A DNA stretch of 64,000 nucleotides, taken from contig NC_065536.1 of the NCBI RefSeq assembly GCF_932294415.1, positions 2,170,001 through 2,234,000 of the forward strand. Direction: 5' to 3'. The position numbers were made by a program, and so were the translations under genes. The stretch comes from Quercus robur (lineage: Eukaryota; Streptophyta; Magnoliopsida; Fagales; Fagaceae). Of this stretch, positions 32,580-54,514 are shown in pieces. The notes beneath the pieces are model-generated. The model was not told the DNA's origin, did not search any database, and saw only the letters and a program-made list of their open reading frames with translations. Position 1 is the first letter of the stretch. Each line of letters opens with the position of its first letter.

Positions 32580-35500
32580 CTGGGATGCACGGACGCGGCT
32601 CCCAGGCCGGCGCACCCGCGTCCGACGCGGTGACGTGGGAGGGACGCCGCAGACCGCGCGTCCGTCCCACGTCGTGCCGCGTCGCGCCACGTGGCGGATC
32701 CTGATTCAGGCCGACGCGGGCTGACGCGGCCAAAGTCGGCGCCGACGCGGCCGAAATCGGGCCGACTCGGTCCGTATCAGCCTATATCGGCCGAAATGGC
32801 CGAGTCAGGCCGAAATTCAAAAAAAAAAAAAAAAAAAAAAAAGGTGCAAACGCACCGTTTGACTTAAGGGGTCTTAACCTAAATACCCAGACCCCTTAAG
32901 TCACTCACACTTCAGCCAAAATTCCTCTCTCACTTCGTCCCTCATCTCTTTCTCTGTGTGCTTCACTACTTCGTCCCTCATCTCTGTGTGCTTCACTGCT
33001 TTGTCCCTTATCTCTGTGTGCTCTGTCCATAGTGATTGCTGTGTGCACACTACACTACTTCAGCCTTTAGGTGTGCTCTCTCTGCTCTTTTCTTGAATTT
33101 TTATTCTTTGTTCTTTACTATTTCTCTCTTTCAAATTGCTTAGAAATAAATTTGTGAATCTGAAAATTTATGTGCTTGACTGCTTGCTGTGTTTTTTTGC
33201 TTGTTTTTTCAATTCTTGTGGGAGTTAAAGGGTTTTGTTAACCTATGATTTGTGATTTGTGGTTTGTGGGAGTTAGGGTTCTGTGTTTTTTTTGCTGTGA
33301 ACCTGGTTGCTGTGTTTTTTTTTACTGTGAACTTGGTTTGATTTATCATTAATTTATTTAGTTAATAGTTATTATTTGTAGGTTATTTGTGGGGAGTTAA
33401 AGGGTTTTTTTTGGTTTTGTGGTTTTGTGTTTTTTTGCTGTGAAGTTCACAGTGTGAACCTGGCTGCTGTGTTTTGTTGCTGTGAACTTGGTTTGATTTA
33501 TCATTAATTTGTAGGTTAAATTGAATCTATTGAATTTACAATGGACGAAGTTAATAGCACAGAAAGTTCACAAGAAGTATCAAATGCTGAATCCCCTCTT
33601 TGGCAGTATGTGACTAAAGTAGAAAAACCAGCTGGTGCATCTGTGAAATCTGGTGGAAACACATATTTTAAGTGCAACTATTGTGATATAGTTTTTATGG
33701 GATCCTATTCTAGGGTTAAGGCTCATTTATTACAAATTTCTGGCAAAAGTATTAGAGCATGCCGTAATGTGTCAAAGAGCCATAGGTTGGAAATGCAGCG
33801 AATGCATGATCAAGTTGAGGCTAATAAGTTAGAGTAAGAACAGAGAAGTCATATTCCCTTACCCCCACCTCCCCCAGGCCGTGGGATACCTATTTCCCCA
33901 TTTCGGAGACAAGAAGGGAGTGATAATAGTCATAGTACAAATCCGGTTGATGCTAAGAGGAGGAAGGTGACTATGAATACTACTTTGGAGAAAGCATTTC
34001 AGAATAATGCTAGACATGATTTAGATAGTAGAATTGCTAGGATGTTTTACACCGGTGGGCTTCCGTTTAACTTTGCAAGGAACCCACATTATCGTAGTTC
34101 CTATGCATTTGCTGCTACTCATAGCATTCCGGGTTATCTTCCTCCTGGATACAATGCTTTGAGAACAACACTTTTGCAAAAGGAAAGAGCTCATGTTTAA
34201 AGACTCTTGAAACCAATTAAGGACTCTTGGCTTGAAAATGGTGTAAGTATAGTTTCTGATGGATGGTCAGATCCACAAAGGAGGCCTCTTATTAATATTA
34301 TGGCTGTATCAGATGGGGGTCCAGTGTTTATAAAGGCAATTGATGGGTCAGGTGAGTTCAAAGATAAGCATTACATTGCTAGGGTGTTGAAAGATGCTAT
34401 AAAAGAGATTAGACATGAAAAAGTTGTCCAAGTCATCACTGATAATGCAAATGTGATGAAGGCTGCTGGAGCTCTTATTGAGGGTGAGTATCCTAAAATA
34501 TTTTGGACACCTTGTGTTGTCCACACTCTCAATCTAGATTTGAAGAATATTTGTGCAGCAAAAAACACTGAAAAGAATGAAGTTACATATGAGGAATGTA
34601 GTTGGATTACACGTGTTGCTGATGATGCATCCTTCATACGTGTTTTTATCATGAACCATTCTATGAGGTTGGCAATGTTTAATGAATTTTGTCCATTAAA
34701 ATTGCTCCAAGTTGCTGATACTAGATTTGCTTCGGTGGTTGTAACGTTGAAAAGGTTGAAGTTGATAAAAAGATGCCTTCAAGCCATGGCTATTAGTGAC
34801 CAATGGGCTTCTTATAGGGAGGATGACGTTGGAAAAGCTCAAAAGGTGAAAGATATGATTCTAAGTGATCTTTGGTGGGATAATATTGATTATATCCTTG
34901 AATTCACGGCACCCATTTATGATATGCTACGAATAGCCGACACAGATAAGCCTTGTCTTCATCTTGTGTATGAGATGTGGGATTCCATGATAGAGAAGGT
35001 GAAAGCAGTGATATATCGGCATGAAGGCTTGGAAGAGGATCAATATAGCTCATTTTGGGGTGTGGTGTATGATATACTCATTGATCGGTGGACTAAAAAT
35101 TCTACACCACTACATTGCTTGGCTCATTCCTTAAATCCTAAGTAAGTACATTTATTATCTATTTTCCTTAGTTCACCCTTTTAGTAAAACATACGTTTGA
35201 TCTATATTTGTTTTTTAATCTTTAACTAGGTATTACTCCATTGAATGGATTTCGGAGAATCCAAAACGTATCCCTCCACATCGGGATCATGAAATTTCTA
35301 TGGAAAGAAGCAAGTGTTTGGAGCGATACTTTGAAGATGAGAATGACTTAACGGTGGTGAAGTATGAGTTTGCTAAATTTTCAGGAGGGAGGTTTCCTTC
35401 ACCAAGTGCCTTGATCGATAGGTGGACCTTACTACCTTTGGTTTGGTGGCAATACCATGGCTCCGCATTTCCAACTCTTCAAACCCTTGCCCTTAAACTT

Positions 35501-36219
35501 CTTGGACAACCTTGCTCATCCTCATGTGCTGAGAGAAATTGGAGCACGTACAAATTCATTCATTCCTTAAAAAGAAACAAAATGGCTCCTGCACGCGCTG
35601 AGGATTTGGTATATGTGCATTCTAATCTTCGACTCTTGTCAAGGCGCAATGAAGAGTACATACATACCGCAACAAAGATGTGGGATATTGCAGGAGACTC
35701 TTGGAATGAGAGCGACATGCATGGAGGAGCTGGAATTCTTGAGAATGCAACTCTTACACTTGATGAGCCAGAGTTGGAGGCTATAGTTATTGGGAATGTT
35801 AACACTAGTGCTACTACTAGTGAAAGTGAAGTTCGAAGTGAAGCCATTGATCTTGAGGATGATGATATTTGTGTTTGATTGTCTTGTTGATTACCTTTTA
35901 TTTTGTTTTAGTTTCAAACTTATGAGTTGTATTATAATTTCCAAACATCATGGAATGTTTTAGTTTCAATCTTGTGGATTATATTTAATTTATGAACATC
36001 ATGTTTTAGTTGTTATCTACTATTGCTCTTAAATTTGGTATTTGTTTATATAATGTGAAAAAGTAAAAGTATGCTTAGCAATATATTAAACATATATTAT
36101 AAAAATATTTTTAATAATTTTTTAATCGCCGAGTCCTGCCGCACCCGCACCTACCTTTTTCAAAAATTGCCGAGTCCCGCACCCGCACCCGAGTCCCGAA
36201 ACGCACCCGTGCTTCATAG
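32580..36219 (+). mobile_element. hAT transposon, 3640 bp, near-complete
   Basis: It has an exact 8-bp duplication GTGAAGAT (32572-32579 and 36220-36227). The ends are CTGGGATGCACGGACGCG and, reversed, CTATGAAGCACGGGTGCG. Subterminal regions are GC-rich with repeated gacgcgg / cacccgcacc words, plausible transposase-binding sites. Inside is a BED-hAT transposase gene (33541-35878). Copy 2 shows the empty site at 20353-20360. The insertion separates the promoter of peroxidase copy 4 from its upstream region. Confidence 0.92.
33541..35878 (+). pseudogene. hAT transposase (BED zinc finger), two stops
   Basis: The start is at 33541. The N-terminal BED finger has CNYC, a His in KAHLL and a Cys in IRAC (about residues 40-80). 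Then come a DUF659/hAT N-terminal region (SWLENGVSIVSDGWSDP), the RNase-H-like core (ITDNANVMKAAG, FWTPCVVHTLNLDLKNI) and a C-terminal hAT dimerisation region (LALKLLGQPCSSSCAERNWS). An 88-bp GT-AG intron (35142-35229) restores LNPKYYS. Two in-frame TAA codons, at 33835-33837 and 34198-34200, break an otherwise continuous ~750-residue frame. It would bind the element's ends and catalyse cut-and-paste movement; as written it cannot make full-length protein. Confidence 0.88.
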
Positions 36220-39988: not shown

Positions 39989-42115
39989 TCCATAGATGCC
40001 ATCCCTATTTAAAAAGGAAATAAATAAAATGTAAGGAATTAATAGTAAAATTATTTTATTTTTCATTTTATTTAATAGATTTCAAATAGACTAGGAAACT
40101 AGATATATATATATATATATATATATTTTTAAAATTTATCTATTTCTATTCCATTCTATTTTTATTAAAATTTATTTGTCTCACTTCCTGCATGCAATAG
40201 AAAAATATATTGAGAAAACAAGTGACCAACCAAGTAATTATTCAATATTCTTAAATACAATGATATGCTTTTTTTATATATACAACATAGAAATTCTACA
40301 CTAACTTAATCTAGGTGTATAAGTGTATGAAACTCCCTTTTAGAGACTTGAATCATGTCCCTTGCCCCCCACACCACACAAGCACTTAATATTTGTGGAG
40401 TAACTTAATACTGTATATATATCAAAGCATTAGTGTAACTTAATTACGCTTTCTATTCTTTCTTGATTCATCAATAAAGTTCACATTTTATTTAGAAAGC
40501 TCTTAATTTAACATGGCATCAGAGTATAAAATCCTGAATTCGATCCTCGTCTCCTCTACTCTACCTCTCATTTAAAATGCCACGTGTTGGGTCTCATCTA
40601 TTAAAAGGTAATTTTGGCCCACACGTGAGAGAGTGTTAGAATTGTGTAGTTAAATAATTAAATTTACCATATATATCCTAATAATTTAACATTTTGGGAC
40701 AATCGATAATTTAACACTAATTAAATTTGTAGTTAAATTTGCTATTCACATATTAGAGGAGGGACTACCTAAAAATTTCCATGATTAAAAGCATGATAAT
40801 TAGCTAGGTCTCCCATTGATCAAGTAGCTAGCATTTCATCATCAATTGAAACTCATTTAAGATGATCATTTATACGTCATTCTAAGGAAATAGTCTATTC
40901 TCTATCCTATGAAATGAATTTCTCAGCTTAGTAATTCCAACTTTTATTTCGTTGACTAAAACAAAATGATTAGCTGTGAAAAGATAACTTGTAGTTTAGT
41001 TCAACCACTTACTGTTTCTCACACCTTTCTTCATAACTTTTTTAGTTCGGATAGATAAAAAATTCACACACTCCGTCACATTGAATAACCATTCACTTGA
41101 TATGGGGATACTAAAACACATGGATGAGAGAGTGGGCATGAAATATTTTGTGAAATTTTTTGGTAAGTAATTAAAGAATTATCGTAATATTTTTTTCCAT
41201 TTGACAACTGTATAATGGATCATAAGAAAATCCGTGGGCTATTTGTTCACATCATGTTCAGAATTATTAGCTGGGGAAATGCACCATAATGCATATCTTG
41301 TGGTTGTAAATGTCTTGAATTTGTTGTGTTATTTAAGAAGAGCTCTAATTTCGCGGATGAAATAAAGGATTTTTTTCATTCATTCATTCATTCATTCATT
41401 TTTTTTTTGGTGGGAGAAGGGGGTAATGACTAATCCAAAGGAAAAGTGATGTTCAAAATTTTTTACTCTGTCTCTCATTAGATAACTGAATTAATGGACT
41501 ATTGAAAAGGGTAATACCTTTTTTATTATTATTAATAATCAGATAACTAGGTAGTGCAAGCTCAATGGAAATTATAAACAAGACGGCACAGTATTGGGCC
41601 TCAAAGCCCAATAAAATCCAAGGTTTCTACCACATGACATCAGGCTCTAACAATACAACAAATTTACAAATTACTCCCGAATCCAGCCATTCAAGCAGAA
41701 AGCCTCCAACATGGCCCATTCTACTACTTTTGAAAGAAGCAACTTGAGCACCACAGATCAAATCTTCTAGAAATGCACTAGAACCACCTCAAGTAATATA
41801 AATTCCTAGGCAACTTAATTATAAATTCTTTCAGCACAGATCAAGGGCCAAGATCTGAGACCAAAGCACATAAATAAATAAAGACGCCCACTAAAGGTTA
41901 ATGAGGTCAACCTAATTCTTACATTGATAAACAGAGAAATTCTATCGATTTATAATTAATTAATAACGTTGTTCGCTTTAAGTGCTTGAAACCTAATTCA
42001 TATAATGAGTCCAAGAAACTTATTTTAAGAACCAACATGTAATTCGTCACAACATGTGTTACTAACTCACAAGAAATTATTTACTCTTATATGAGGAGTT
42101 TTTACTCCTCAACAT
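39989..42115. other. Intergenic flank, duplicated type
   Basis: No gene. 39989-40890 parallels 27597-27838 plus 29730-30390, and the remainder parallels 37290-38350. An (ATTC)n tract occurs at about 41379-41400. Confidence 0.7.
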
Positions 42116-42126
42116 GAGGTGTGGGT

Positions 42127-42930
42127 GTGGGGATTCCGGTATGAGGTCGGCTTTGTCACTGTCAAGGAGCTGCTGCTATGGATGATAGATGAAGATGAAG
42201 ATAAATCCCTGGAACTTCTAGCTTTTACGGCATGGGGTGTATGGAACCAGAGGAACAGAGCACGTTTAAAGTTGCAGTCCAGCCCGCTTCATCAGGTTGC
42301 TGCACAATCACGGATTAGTCTGGTGCAATACCGAGCTGATTTGCAAGTTTCAGAGGTACAAGTGGGGTGTAGCGGCAGGGGGGGAAATAGATGGACGGCA
42401 CCGCCAAACGGTTTTGTTAAAATAAACTTTGATGGAGCAAATGCCGAATCCTCAAGGCTGTCTGGTGTGGGAGTAGTGATTCGAGACTCGGAGGGTGCTG
42501 TTTTGGCTTCTTGTGCAGAGAAATTAAATCAACCGTTCAAGGCAGAAGATACGGAAGCCTTGGCTGCATTGAAGGCTTTGTCCTTCGCACACGAGCTGGG
42601 CTTCCAAAATATTGTCCTTGAAGGTGATGCGTTGGACTTAATTCAAGCGTTGAAGGCACAAGAACAGAACTTATTGCCGTGGGGTCTGCTGGTAGAAGAT
42701 GTGAAAGAGTATGGAACAAAATTTAGAAGAATATTGTATTCTCATGTTAAGAGAAATGGCAATAGTGTAGTTCATAATTTGGCCAAACATGCTTTATGTA
42801 TACCAGATTATCAAGTTTGGATGGAGGATGTTCCATCCTATATTGTTCAGTTTTTACAGATGGATGTAACTCATTTATGTTAATGGAATTTCATAAGTTC
42901 TTTCTCAAAAAAAAAAAAAAAAAAAAAAAA
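42127..42930 (+). mobile_element. 5'-truncated LINE (L1-type) with poly-A tail
   Basis: It is flanked by an 11-bp duplication GAGGTGTGGGT (42116-42126 and 42931-42941) and ends in A24 (42907-42930). These are hallmarks of target-primed reverse transcription. A single frame runs to a TAA at 42881-42883. It carries the C-terminal RNase H domain (RVT_3 type) of plant L1 ORF2, with acidic residues in NFDGA, EDTEALAAL and EGDALDLI, preceded by the WGVWNQRNRARLK linker. Everything upstream (endonuclease, RT) is missing. The ATG at 42119 lies in the target duplication and is not a real start. The paralogue near 38955 is empty. Confidence 0.88.
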
Positions 42931-49749: not shown

Positions 49750-49758
49750 TAAAAGATA

Positions 49759-50298
49759 GGGATAATTACACATAACCCACCTGTGGTTAGGGCGAAAATC
49801 ACTTTGCCTACCCGTGGTTTGAAAAGTATCACTTAACCCACCTGTGGTATGTTTCCGTCAATCTCCGTAACCCACCTCAAGCCCAGCCGTTACAAAAACA
49901 CCTCTTAACACCAAAACACAACATAACACGAATCAAAACACCCAAAACTCAGAAACTTTTCAAGAGAGAGACTTGTGGTGAGATCAACGTGTTCTTCGTG
50001 GTTTTTATATCTCTTTTTCAGCATCACTCACCCGCAAATCCCTACTCTCTTTCAGTTTCATGGGGTTTTCTCGCAGACCCATTTCGCATTCCACCCGAAT
50101 TCCCACAAACCCAGTTCAGATTAGTGGGTTTCGTACTTGTTCTTCGTGCCACTCTTACTCTCACCCGTTGAGTTCTAGCCATGGAGCCGAGTTTAAGAAT
50201 TTGGGCCGTTTTGAAATGCGATTTGGGCAACTGGGTTTTGATCATTTTCTAGTTTCTACAGTTTTGAATGGTGGGTCGGGTGGTTATGGGCAACTGGG

Positions 50299-50329
<31 letters not shown>

Positions 50330-52237
50330 AATTCGAGGAGTTAGCCAAAGGGTTGAGGGAGGCAATGAGGAAAACTTCTATCTTTCTTTTCTCTCTATTG
50401 TGAACCCATAACCACTGGCCACCGTGATTTCTGCAAAAAAAAATAAATAAATAAAGCACACCCATGAATCTGTAATAAGGTTGATCTGGCGAACCTATAC
50501 TAGTAACTTAATTCGATAGTAACCCATCAAAAGCAAAAGTGATTTATAATGGAATAAACCAGCTGCCTAGATTGAAAAAAGAAAAAAAGAAAAGAAACTT
50601 GCAATAACATACAAAGAGATGGGAGTCACCTCAATGTGTAGAAGATATAAATCAGAGTCTATAACCAGGTTTTGTTCCTTATGAAATATCCATCGTGGCA
50701 CAACTTTATTAATCCAATGACCATAGTTTCTTGGGAAGCTCCATATCAATCTGCTACTCCCTGGACTAACTGGAATGGAAAAAAAAATTTAAAAAAAATT
50801 CCTTCTGCACAGATGTATCCTACATCAACCAAGATTTACATAAATAGAAGTACTAAGGAACGAAAAATGAAATACATAAGTAAGAATTAACCAAAAATTT
50901 TGTTTATCATCTATGTATAAAAGATTAATCAATCTAATAGATAACCTTTCTGGTTCCAGCTGATGATTCAGATCCATTAGCTTGATCCTCAGGCTTAAGA
51001 GATGCATAAACCAAGTATGGGGCAATAAATGTGCATCTGCTCCATTCCTGAAACTGTACTATATTGAACCCATTGCCGTCCAACTTTTCAATCTTAAATT
51101 CAATCGGTGTGCACCCCTCTCTATCAGCCTCCGCTGTGAAGGTAACTTGGTTTCAGTCATAAATAAAGAAATCAAAACTTATTGGCAGAACATAAGGATT
51201 ATTCAAAACTTCACTGTTTTTGGATGGTAGAATTTCCTTTACTCTATAATGTGCATAAGGAACATGAGCAGGATCCATAAGATTCTCAATCAATACCTCA
51301 TATCTGAATTTGTAAAAAATCAATATATTCCCAATCAGATCTGCTAAAGAGAAAGGAGGTAAGATATAAAAAATAAAAAATAAAAAAAAGAAGCAAAGCC
51401 CAAATTCAGGTGCCCAACTTTTAGTGATACACACATTTGAAAACCTTCCATATGATATTTATGCCAAATGAAAAGAAAGAAGAAACCATTTACAATCAAT
51501 CAAAAAGATATGAACTTTCTTATGACATTTGCCAAAATGAAATTATAAAATATTAATACTTTGTCCTTCAGCATTACAGGTGCCTAAAAGTTATAAAACA
51601 TATAGCAGGAAAAAAGGCTAGATATGGTTTCATAAGTAGAAAAAATAGAATCTATATTTTCCAAGATAACAGGTTTTTGTCAGAAGATAGTGGCAGACCA
51701 TACCCATTAGGAATATCTCTATTTCCCATTAAGTTAGTATATGAAAGATCATCTATTTCTGGAATGTAGGGGGGTTTCTTTTCCACAAGAATATCTTTGT
51801 ATAAAAAAAAAAAAAAATAAAGCACACCCAAATGCAAAAACCAACAAAACCCACAAATGGTGACACAAAACCACCAAATGGAGAGCCACAACTCATTAAT
51901 GGCGAGAAAATTTGTAACCACTTATGGAGAGCCAGAACCATCGTGATGAGATGAAACCACCGGGCCAGGATAGGCTGAAAAAGAGATATAAAAATCACGA
52001 AGAACACGTTGATCTCACCACAAGTCTCTCTCTTGAAAAGTTTCTGAGTTTTGGGTGTTTTGATTCGCGTTATGTTGTGTTTTGGTGTTAAGAGGTGTTT
52101 TTGTAACGGCTGGGCTTGAGGTGGGTTACGGAGATTGACGGAAACATACCACAGGTGGGTTAAGTGATACTTTTCAAATCACGGGTAGGCAAAGTGATTT
52201 TCGCCCTAACCACAGGTGGGTTATGTGTAATTATCCC
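49759..52237. mobile_element. Pack-MULE, 2479 bp, 264-bp TIRs
   Basis: The arms are 49759-50022 and 51974-52237, both 264 bp, near-perfect inverted repeats starting GGGATAATTACACATAACCC. The flanks are taaaagata (49750-49758) and taaaagaaa (52238-52246), a 9-bp duplication with one mismatch, as expected for Mutator-like elements. No MURA transposase is present. The interior carries exons and introns of a host Rieske-oxygenase gene on the minus strand (50630-51800), making this a gene-capturing non-autonomous element. Confidence 0.9.
50630..51800 (-). pseudogene. Captured PTC52/PAO-like Rieske oxygenase fragment
   Basis: Four exon-like blocks lie in gene order on the minus strand. Block a (~51705-51800) has KKPPYIPEIDD and MGNRDIPNG, with donor GTATGG at 51703. 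Block b (from 51303, after TTCAG) has YEVLIENLMDPAHVPYAHY. Block c (~50946-51133) has ADREGCTPIEFKIEKLDGNG and CTFIAPYLVYASLKPEDQ, with donor GTTATC. Block d (50630-50769) has SPGSSRLIWSFPRN and VVPRWIFHKEQNLVIDSDLY. These match the middle and C-terminal part of chloroplast PTC52 / pheophorbide a oxygenase proteins, downstream of the Rieske centre. Retained introns show capture from DNA, not mRNA. The N-terminal Rieske cluster and the C-terminal membrane anchors are absent, so no enzyme is made. Confidence 0.85.
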
Positions 52238-53356: not shown

Positions 53357-54514
53357 CTAGTTCACAAACCTACAATCTTTCCTAATCTCACCTTGACTTC
53401 CTATAAGCACATCAACGTAACCCATTTTCACCATAGCTACTGCAAACTTAAAAGCCCATGTTTCACCTTGCTTTGCATTATTCTTGACAATTCCAACCGT
53501 TGAAGGGCTACTCAAAAGAGATTGATCCGAGGTCAATATGCCATGGTGGTTCTTCAAATTTATATAGTACTTATTATCTAGCCTATTTGGTGTAAGTACA
53601 TCAAGTGGTACAGTTGGATCGACATTGCCAGCATTTTGTGGACACTTGGCCTTTAAGTCTCTAGCAAATATAGGATCCATTGAAGGGTCTTGTGGATTTG
53701 TTTCACTGAAATTGTATAATCGCTTTGAGAAAGAAGAACAATGTGACCTTCCTATAGAATGTGCACCAGAAAGTGTCACCATTTCATCAAGACTAAGTCC
53801 TTTTCGCGCAAATCTTTGTTCGAGTTCCTGAGCATTGAAGGTAGGTGGTGGAAGGTTTTCAATAGGCTCATTTTCACGTGACACCCTACCATCACGACGT
53901 CCTGATGGAACTTTGTAACTTATGCCCCCAACTTTGTAAGCACTGTCACGAGCAGCAAATGCAATAATGTCTGCACAAGAGACTGTTTGTGGGCATTGAG
54001 CTTCAAGTGCGGCCTTCGCCTCAAATATCACTTCAAATCCTCTTAAGCTTGTATTGTTGACTGGACTATCTCTCTCTGCTGGATTTCCGGGGGTTGAATC
54101 AAGTAAGACAGAGGCATCACAACCCTGGCATAAATAACATTGAAAATAAGATTTAACTCTAACAGCTTAGTAATTATGTGGCTTATAAGGTATATTCTTT
54201 TTGCGGGAACATAAAGGAAAAGTAGAAGAGTGCAAATTTAGGTACAGATTCTAGTGAACATATAACAAGTTAACTGGTGCTGCAAAGTGCTAACATACCC
54301 TGACAAAACAGTCATGAAAATGCATTCTGATGAGGCCAGCAGCGAGACCAGGGTTGCTTGATACGGCTTTGATCACAGCGTTTCTCACAATGGTCTCTGC
54401 AGAAGGACAAGTTGATTGATAGTAACCCACTTTGAGTGATGGCATCGCCAGTGACATTGACACCATCATAGACATGGTAACAAAGAAAACCAAGCAAAAT
54501 TTGGTTGTTGCCAT
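53357..54514 (-). CDS. Class III peroxidase, copy 7 (intact)
   Basis: Exons 54299-54514 and 53357-54124 with a 174-bp intron, phase 0 in FVR|GCDAS. The product has 327 residues. The signal peptide covers residues 1-23. Distal Arg63, Phe66 and His67, [12 protein letters not shown], proximal His194 in [12 protein letters not shown] and all eight structural cysteines are present. It is predicted to be a secreted H2O2-dependent phenol oxidase. It is nearly identical to copy 8, including exon 1 ([14 protein letters not shown]) and the intron, so the two are the youngest pair in the array. Own features include RFARKG, GNVDPTV and [17 protein letters not shown] is at 54656-54663. Confidence 0.93.

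Follow-up and report, generated by a model that had tools for sequence, protein, structure and literature searches.

How did exons of an oxygenase gene, with their introns, come to stand among the peroxidase-like genes of Quercus robur? The question is raised by an element of 2479 bp at positions 49759-52237 of the 64,000-nucleotide stretch that we analyzed (contig C3:2170001-2234000, hereafter the window). The initial annotation had interpreted it as a Mutator-like element that captured genomic DNA of a PTC52/pheophorbide-oxygenase (PAO)-like gene. To trace its evolution we compared the element with its relatives and with possible donor genes across the genome (785.7 Mb, 42 contigs).

Structure and genomic setting of the element

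The components of the element are listed in Table 1. Its ends read GGGATAATTACACATAACCC, and the two 264-bp inverted arms (TIRs) described earlier were confirmed at the same places, identical at 261 of 264 positions with three mismatches. The near-perfect 9-bp target site duplication (TSD) was likewise found, with eight of nine bases agreeing between TAAAAGATA and TAAAAGAAA. A single match of 8/9 is weak in AT-rich DNA, so we carried out a family-wide control. A TSD of at least 8/9 was present in 28 of the 30 delimited family copies as against 41 of 870 mismatched pairs of left and right flanks, which backs the duplication in the window.

The element overlaps four ORFs of 95 aa or more. None of the four reaches a Pfam curated cut-off, so none matches a Pfam transposase family, in agreement with the initial annotation. 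Their best sub-threshold match, VanA_C (E=0.001), falls on the oxygenase exon of the cargo. We also followed the single-TIR locus L044/L050 10 kb further and found no partner TIR over about 12 kb, and inspection of this stretch by eye, without a Pfam scan, revealed no transposase-like ORF.

Thus, the element combines long TIRs (the threshold of at least 100 bp follows a passage of PMC3310237), a 9-bp TSD, host-gene fragments, the lack of its own transposase, and mobility. The latter is evident from four full copies and five derivatives at separate sites, each with its own duplication. By structure it is a non-autonomous Pack-MULE: a well-preserved case of a known process, not a new kind of element.

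The location in a peroxidase cluster was also recognized correctly. Peroxidase-like ORFs, which we take to be of class III, lie on both sides of the element, and all four that we tested match PF00141. Of the two that border the element, one has a reading frame ending at 53357, and the element lies about 1.1 kb downstream of this ORF. Tandem ORFs of this type extend over window positions 5629-59248; the recognised ones are all on the minus strand, and some look truncated or frameshifted. A search for a paralogous empty site with the joined flanks gave no match across the insertion point within the window. Beyond the flanks and one short right-flank repeat, peroxidase-downstream matches begin about 280 bp from the insertion point.

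Two other regions of the window contain ORFs of different origin. At 33520-35878, separate ORFs encode a zinc-finger-like N-terminus, a DUF659 middle part (PF04937, E=2.9e-39) and a C-terminal part, presumably of a hAT-type transposon. At 42095-42883, an RNase H-like ORF (RVT_3, PF13456, E=6.7e-26) adjoins a peroxidase gene and is probably a retroelement remnant.

Table 1. Components of the Pack-MULE and its target site, in window positions
Feature	Positions	Strand	Basis
Left TSD copy, 9 bp, TAAAAGATA	49750..49758	.	flank comparison
Left TIR, 264 bp, begins GGGATAATTACACA	49759..50022	+	arm alignment
First (older) captured piece, Mpv17/PMP22 5' leader and 5' part of exon 1; donor C35:35691571-35691841 (L048), 93%; ATG at 50060	50019..50289	+	alignment
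Acceptor segment, left copy, (A)nTAAATAAAGCACACCCA; final 5 bases ACCCA are microhomology with the PTC52-like donor	50435..50464	+	junction alignment
Second captured piece, PTC52-like, pheophorbide-oxygenase type, 1338 bp with introns; donor C1:9550466-9551805 (L013)	50465..51802	-	alignment
Segment absent from L018-L022, 659 bp, 4-bp junction microhomology AGAT	50621..51279	.	copy alignment
Captured exon D, part of PaO domain, 190 bp, frameshifted in window copy	50630..50819	-	reading of copies, Pfam
Captured exon C	50946..51133	-	reading of copies
Captured exon B, codes for YEVLIENLMDPAHVPYAHY	51215..51303	-	reading of copies
Captured exon A, 5'-truncated, splice donor GG/GTATGG intact	51704..51801	-	reading of copies
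Acceptor segment, right duplicated copy	51803..51830	+	junction alignment
Right TIR, 264 bp	51974..52237	-	arm alignment
Right TSD copy, 9 bp, TAAAAGAAA	52238..52246	.	flank comparison

Two captured gene fragments and their donors

The larger captured fragment belongs to a family that we take to be PTC52 rather than PAO proper. The initial annotation had proposed a check, an intron-level match to a gene of the same genome. The search returned a donor on C1 that spans the introns and is 98.4% identical to the cargo over 1343 aligned columns, introns included. The capture of intron-containing genomic DNA by a Mutator-like element is supported by this match, not refuted. Ungapped differences from the donor amount to 19, 18, 21, and 16 of 1335 sites in the four full copies (1.2-1.6%).

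The four minus-strand exon blocks had been placed in the right order, and we corrected the start of exon D, which lies at a G[C/T]AG acceptor before GATACATC and not at an internal CCAG near 50770. The introns between exons A-D keep GT..AG in all four full copies. Translation of the blocks, another proposed check, gave a match of the joined exons A-D (in the L011 reading) to Pfam PaO (PF08417, E=5.3e-19). Upstream of the captured part, the donor has an exon that matches the Rieske domain (PF00355, E=1e-20). This exon is outside the capture, and the captured part itself is the catalytic/PaO region. At its right end the cargo is cut within a donor exon.

Exon D is damaged by a stop or frameshift in three of the four full copies. 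An in-frame TAA after GAATTTTTT is common to the donor, L010, and L012, the latter two having one further stop each; exon D is open in L011 alone, where a T-to-A change seems to have opened it. Exon 5 of the donor, too, seems to contain a frameshift. Probably the TAA was already there at capture and the donor is a decaying tandem paralogue. Four other C1 loci within about 66 kb match the cargo at 89.8, 88.5, 82.1, and 80.7%, which makes the donor one of at least five members of a tandem array. The intron-1 splice site is AT in the donor but GT in all four full copies and all four paralogues, indicating that its loss postdates the capture. Nine differences between copies and donor are fixed; when polarised with L014 and L015, eight trace to changes of the donor and one to a change of the copies.

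How much genetic distinction has accumulated in the exons as compared with the rest of the cargo? Divergence from the donor at exon and non-exon sites, respectively, is 8/563 and 11/772 in the window copy, 10/563 and 8/772 in L010, 9/563 and 12/772 in L011, and 8/563 and 8/772 in L012. Exons and non-exon sequence have diverged alike, and no working PTC52-like protein is to be expected from these copies.

Two features of the C1 array concern the genes themselves. Between the Rieske exon and exon A, at about 5740-8600 of L013, a long run of repeated short ORF motifs (RPFPQRNLGKNKTMRGMGPK and similar) has expanded an intron of the donor gene. The end of exon B reads ACA/GATAAG in L014-L017 as against ACA/GTGAAG in the donor and the Pack copies, so the array neighbours may be without a canonical splice site there.

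The initial annotation had treated the remaining interior as plain element DNA. This was not the case, since the segment from 50019 to 50289 (element positions 261-531) is another gene fragment, derived from an Mpv17/PMP22 gene. At the C35 donor locus the ORF MGFSRRPISHSTRIP... is followed by exon 2 and the downstream exons in place. The donor exons from L048/L049, when joined, match Mpv17_PMP22 (PF04117, E=1.1e-21); the captured exon 1 by itself has no Pfam match and sits upstream of the domain. Five copies without the PTC52-like piece (L032, L034, L036, L040, and L041) keep a longer stretch of the Mpv17 locus, up to 462 bp plus a piece of about 70 bp. This suggests that the leader and exon 1 were taken, with part of intron 1, before the PTC52-like piece. 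Judged by the distribution of both pieces among copies, the element is a double capture in which the Mpv17/PMP22 piece is older and common to the relatives.

The Mpv17 exon-1 ORF that starts at window position 50060 is open in all four full copies and has early stops in L018, L020, L022, and L029. Twelve copies combine a long ORF with the matching start codon, a set that excludes these four and the start-less copies, and in these 12 the pN/pS relative to the donor lies at about 0.6-1.4. These values give no sign of constraint on the ORF. In L024 and at about 50288-50330 of the window, GGGCAACTGGGTTTT from the Mpv17 exon reappears just before a poly-T tract. This recurrence would mark the place where the short lineage lost the remaining exon, and is possibly a second template-slip scar.

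Copies in the genome and junctions of the capture

The whole-element search of the genome returned at least 155 matching pieces, and the best 40 of 1499 first-look candidates were scored; all copy counts are therefore lower bounds. The 40 loci examined comprise 35 element loci and five of the C1 array. Thirty of the 35 were delimited, L044 is a single TIR, and L045-L048 were left undelimited. At least four full copies with captured DNA, 2479-2494 bp long, are present: L009 in the window, L010 on C6, L011 on C41, and L012 on C39. At least five deletion copies (L018-L022, 1815-1855 bp) have in common the loss of element positions 863-1521. At least eight close relatives (L023-L030, 1099-1151 bp) match the element to the left and to the right of the captured piece and do not have the piece itself, and L031-L043 are more distant members of the family.

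The phylogenetic tree, which includes 17 of the 30 delimited copies and is based on the element without its captured piece, separated capture-bearing from capture-free copies with moderate support (76) and joined the deletion copies L018-L022 in one clade (93). These five were compared piecewise. The relationships of the full copies disagree between the element arms and the captured piece, so that exchange between copies has likely taken place.

Another young subfamily, with uneven TIRs, is represented by L045, L046, and L047 (C40, C35, and C6). Its members are about 1.6-1.7 kb long and have one 246-bp and one approximately 120-bp matching end. L045 and L046 are 99.9% alike over 1669 bp, and L047 shares about 850 bp at 99%.

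If the PTC52-like piece was gained, then its junctions can be read against the uninterrupted sequence of the relatives. Capture-free relatives have ...CTGC(A)nTAAATAAAGCACACCCAAATGC... at the acceptor. The acceptor motif AAAGCACACCC occurs exactly once in all eight close relatives and, with up to two mismatches allowed, once in 20 of 21 capture-free delimited copies, L043 having two weak matches. All nine capture-bearing copies have two occurrences where these are expected, and in L019 the left occurrence has two mismatches. The left junction (marked here by a slash, as is the right one) is ...CCCA/TGAATCT in all nine, with the acceptor of L019 altered just upstream, and the right junction is ...TTTGTAT(C) / (A)n(T/C)AAAGCACACCCAAATGC in all nine as well. 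At the left junction the donor reads AGAACCCATGAATC, which leaves a 5-bp microhomology, ACCCA. Since both junctions and the doubled acceptor are common to all nine copies, one capture event explains them all.

We also considered a hairpin-induced break at the acceptor. The folding of the poly-T/poly-A stretch of L024 did not surpass that of dinucleotide shuffles (z 0.46), and this candidate was rejected.

Origin of the element and possible consequences for the donor

The reading that we prefer, with a probability of about 85%, is that the non-autonomous Pack-MULE was built in at least two rounds, with the PTC52-like piece gained by microhomology repair with a template switch, and was mobilised in trans. 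The comparison of copies shows a long-TIR element that had acquired the leader and exon 1 of the Mpv17/PMP22 gene on C35, together with part of intron 1, and shortened forms of it exist. One short form then gained 1338 bp of the C1 PTC52-like paralogue at an A-rich acceptor (...AATAAAGCACACCCA). We infer the order of the two captures from which copies carry what. The loaded element is present at no fewer than four sites, and a version without the internal 659 bp at five more or above.

At the acceptor, a break was presumably filled by repair synthesis along the element, with a template switch into the donor at ACCCA. Synthesis would then have been rejoined to the other element end, and as this end would itself have been copied past the break, the acceptor would be duplicated. 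A MULE transposase supplied in trans would move the element. The PTC52-like exons would make no working protein, and any effect they have would act via RNA from the arms. For animals, template switching with microhomology, the latter being one sign of it, has been put forward to explain such captures (in a passage of PMC8277862), and gap repair has been proposed for MULEs (in a passage of PMC4858842).

Can the same arrangement arise in another way? In a tandem insertion, two elements would flank the C1 donor segment and lose their inner ends, after which the outer ends would mobilise the host DNA between them. This route, published for Pack-CACTA (passages of PMC13317346 and PMC8616336), could leave overlapping element sequence on either side of the host DNA. 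However, 9.3 kb around the donor contain no trace of the element family, one junction has the 5-bp microhomology, and in an element about 1.1 kb long the two breakpoints are separated by no more than about 30 bp, a proximity that would be improbable for independent deletions. We regard the tandem route as unlikely. The initial annotation had named a simple inverted duplication as one finding that could overturn its own interpretation. Neither this nor an ordinary segmental duplication with chance inverted ends has anything in its favour except the presence of inverted arms. Capture-bearing copies occur at nine places with the same ends and their own 9-bp duplications, which rules out both, and relatives without the captured piece have these ends too; the chance of either duplication is close to nil.

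Microhomology repair with a template switch would account for how the exons were gained, and we can ask further whether they serve as a functional new gene or as a selected regulatory antisense gene. The retention of GT..AG in introns 1-3 and of the open Mpv17 exon-1 ORF in all four full copies, together with the open exon D of L011, speaks for such a gene. However, exon D has a stop or frameshift in the three other full copies, the pN/pS of the Mpv17 exon lies at about 0.6-1.4 (12 copies) with early stops in L018, L020, L022, and L029, and exon and non-exon divergence are alike. Moreover, the five derivatives without exons C and D and most of B still spread. A function of this type is very improbable.

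The donor gene itself could have been affected by the capture. Among nine sequences, private changes of the C:G to T:A type make up 4 of 5 in the donor and 11 of 14 in the four full copies. The paralogues L014-L017 have 18 of 78, and Fisher tests against them gave p values of 0.016 and 0.0001, respectively. When the outgroup rule is relaxed, 7 of 8 donor changes are of this type, all of these in CHG/CHH context. Element singletons outside the cargo are C:G to T:A in 87 of 121 cases over 17 copies, which would be the expected mark of a methylated transposon. With the same excess in donor, copies, and element, the donor appears to mutate like a transposon since the capture. This is a weak hint of silencing in trans, in which small RNAs from the arms or the captured copies would have led to methylation of the donor. 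That the capture began such silencing is a doubtful proposition in our view; if true, the GT to AT loss in donor intron 1 would be a direct scar of it.

Several observations weaken the silencing interpretation. The numbers are tiny and the paralogue branches are older, and methylation of a dying pseudogene may have other causes. The changes did not localise to the captured interval when those before and after capture were pooled, 17/53 in the flanks versus 15/43 inside, a comparison of low power. In the same flanks the paralogues have 35/120 C:G to T:A changes, with L015 as high as 15/33. The pre-capture control gave 11/36 with uncertain polarity, as the outgroup paralogues fall on one side, and we preferred the private-change control. 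In maize, raised siRNA and methylation at Pack-TE donors have been reported (Muyle et al. 2021, via a passage of PMC8616336), and the possible epigenetic footprint on a donor gene is a similarity to that case, although here it is deduced from a handful of substitutions alone.

It is useful to compare the element with known gene-capturing transposons. It is similar to the Pack-MULEs of rice in its long TIRs, 9-bp duplication, gene fragments taken from elsewhere, sometimes from more than one locus, amplified copies, and mostly pseudogene cargo. Rice Pack-MULEs have been reported to favour GC-rich DNA, in contrast to the AT-rich cargo (32% G+C) found here. Pack-CACTA elements belong to a different superfamily, by TIR and duplication details. 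In Arabidopsis they also mobilise host exons within a TIR element (Catoni et al. 2019, via passages of PMC13317346 and PMC8616336), but no flanking element is present here in the 9.3 kb around the donor locus. The multicopy Pack-TIRs of animals, for which a passage of PMC8277862 describes gap filling (FoSTeST), resemble our element in breakpoint microhomology, filler within a TIR element, and later amplification; ours differs as a plant MULE-type element with the acceptor duplicated on either side of the filler. In distinction to the rice elements (Jiang et al. 2004, via PMC8903248 and PMC13317346), a single genome here still contains relatives without the capture, the two donors, and the deletion derivatives. 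Our literature search, of incomplete coverage, met no account of this capture, and we do not claim its absence from print.

Formation of Pack-MULEs is usually inferred from the end products. As far as the compared loci indicate, the intermediates are unusually complete within one genome. With relatives, both donors, the loaded element, its derivatives, and the junctions side by side, it is possible to read directly in which order the events took place and what signature the repair left. In the C1 array one member has been captured and at least four neighbours have not, so the array provides internal controls for feedback from a captured fragment on its donor gene.
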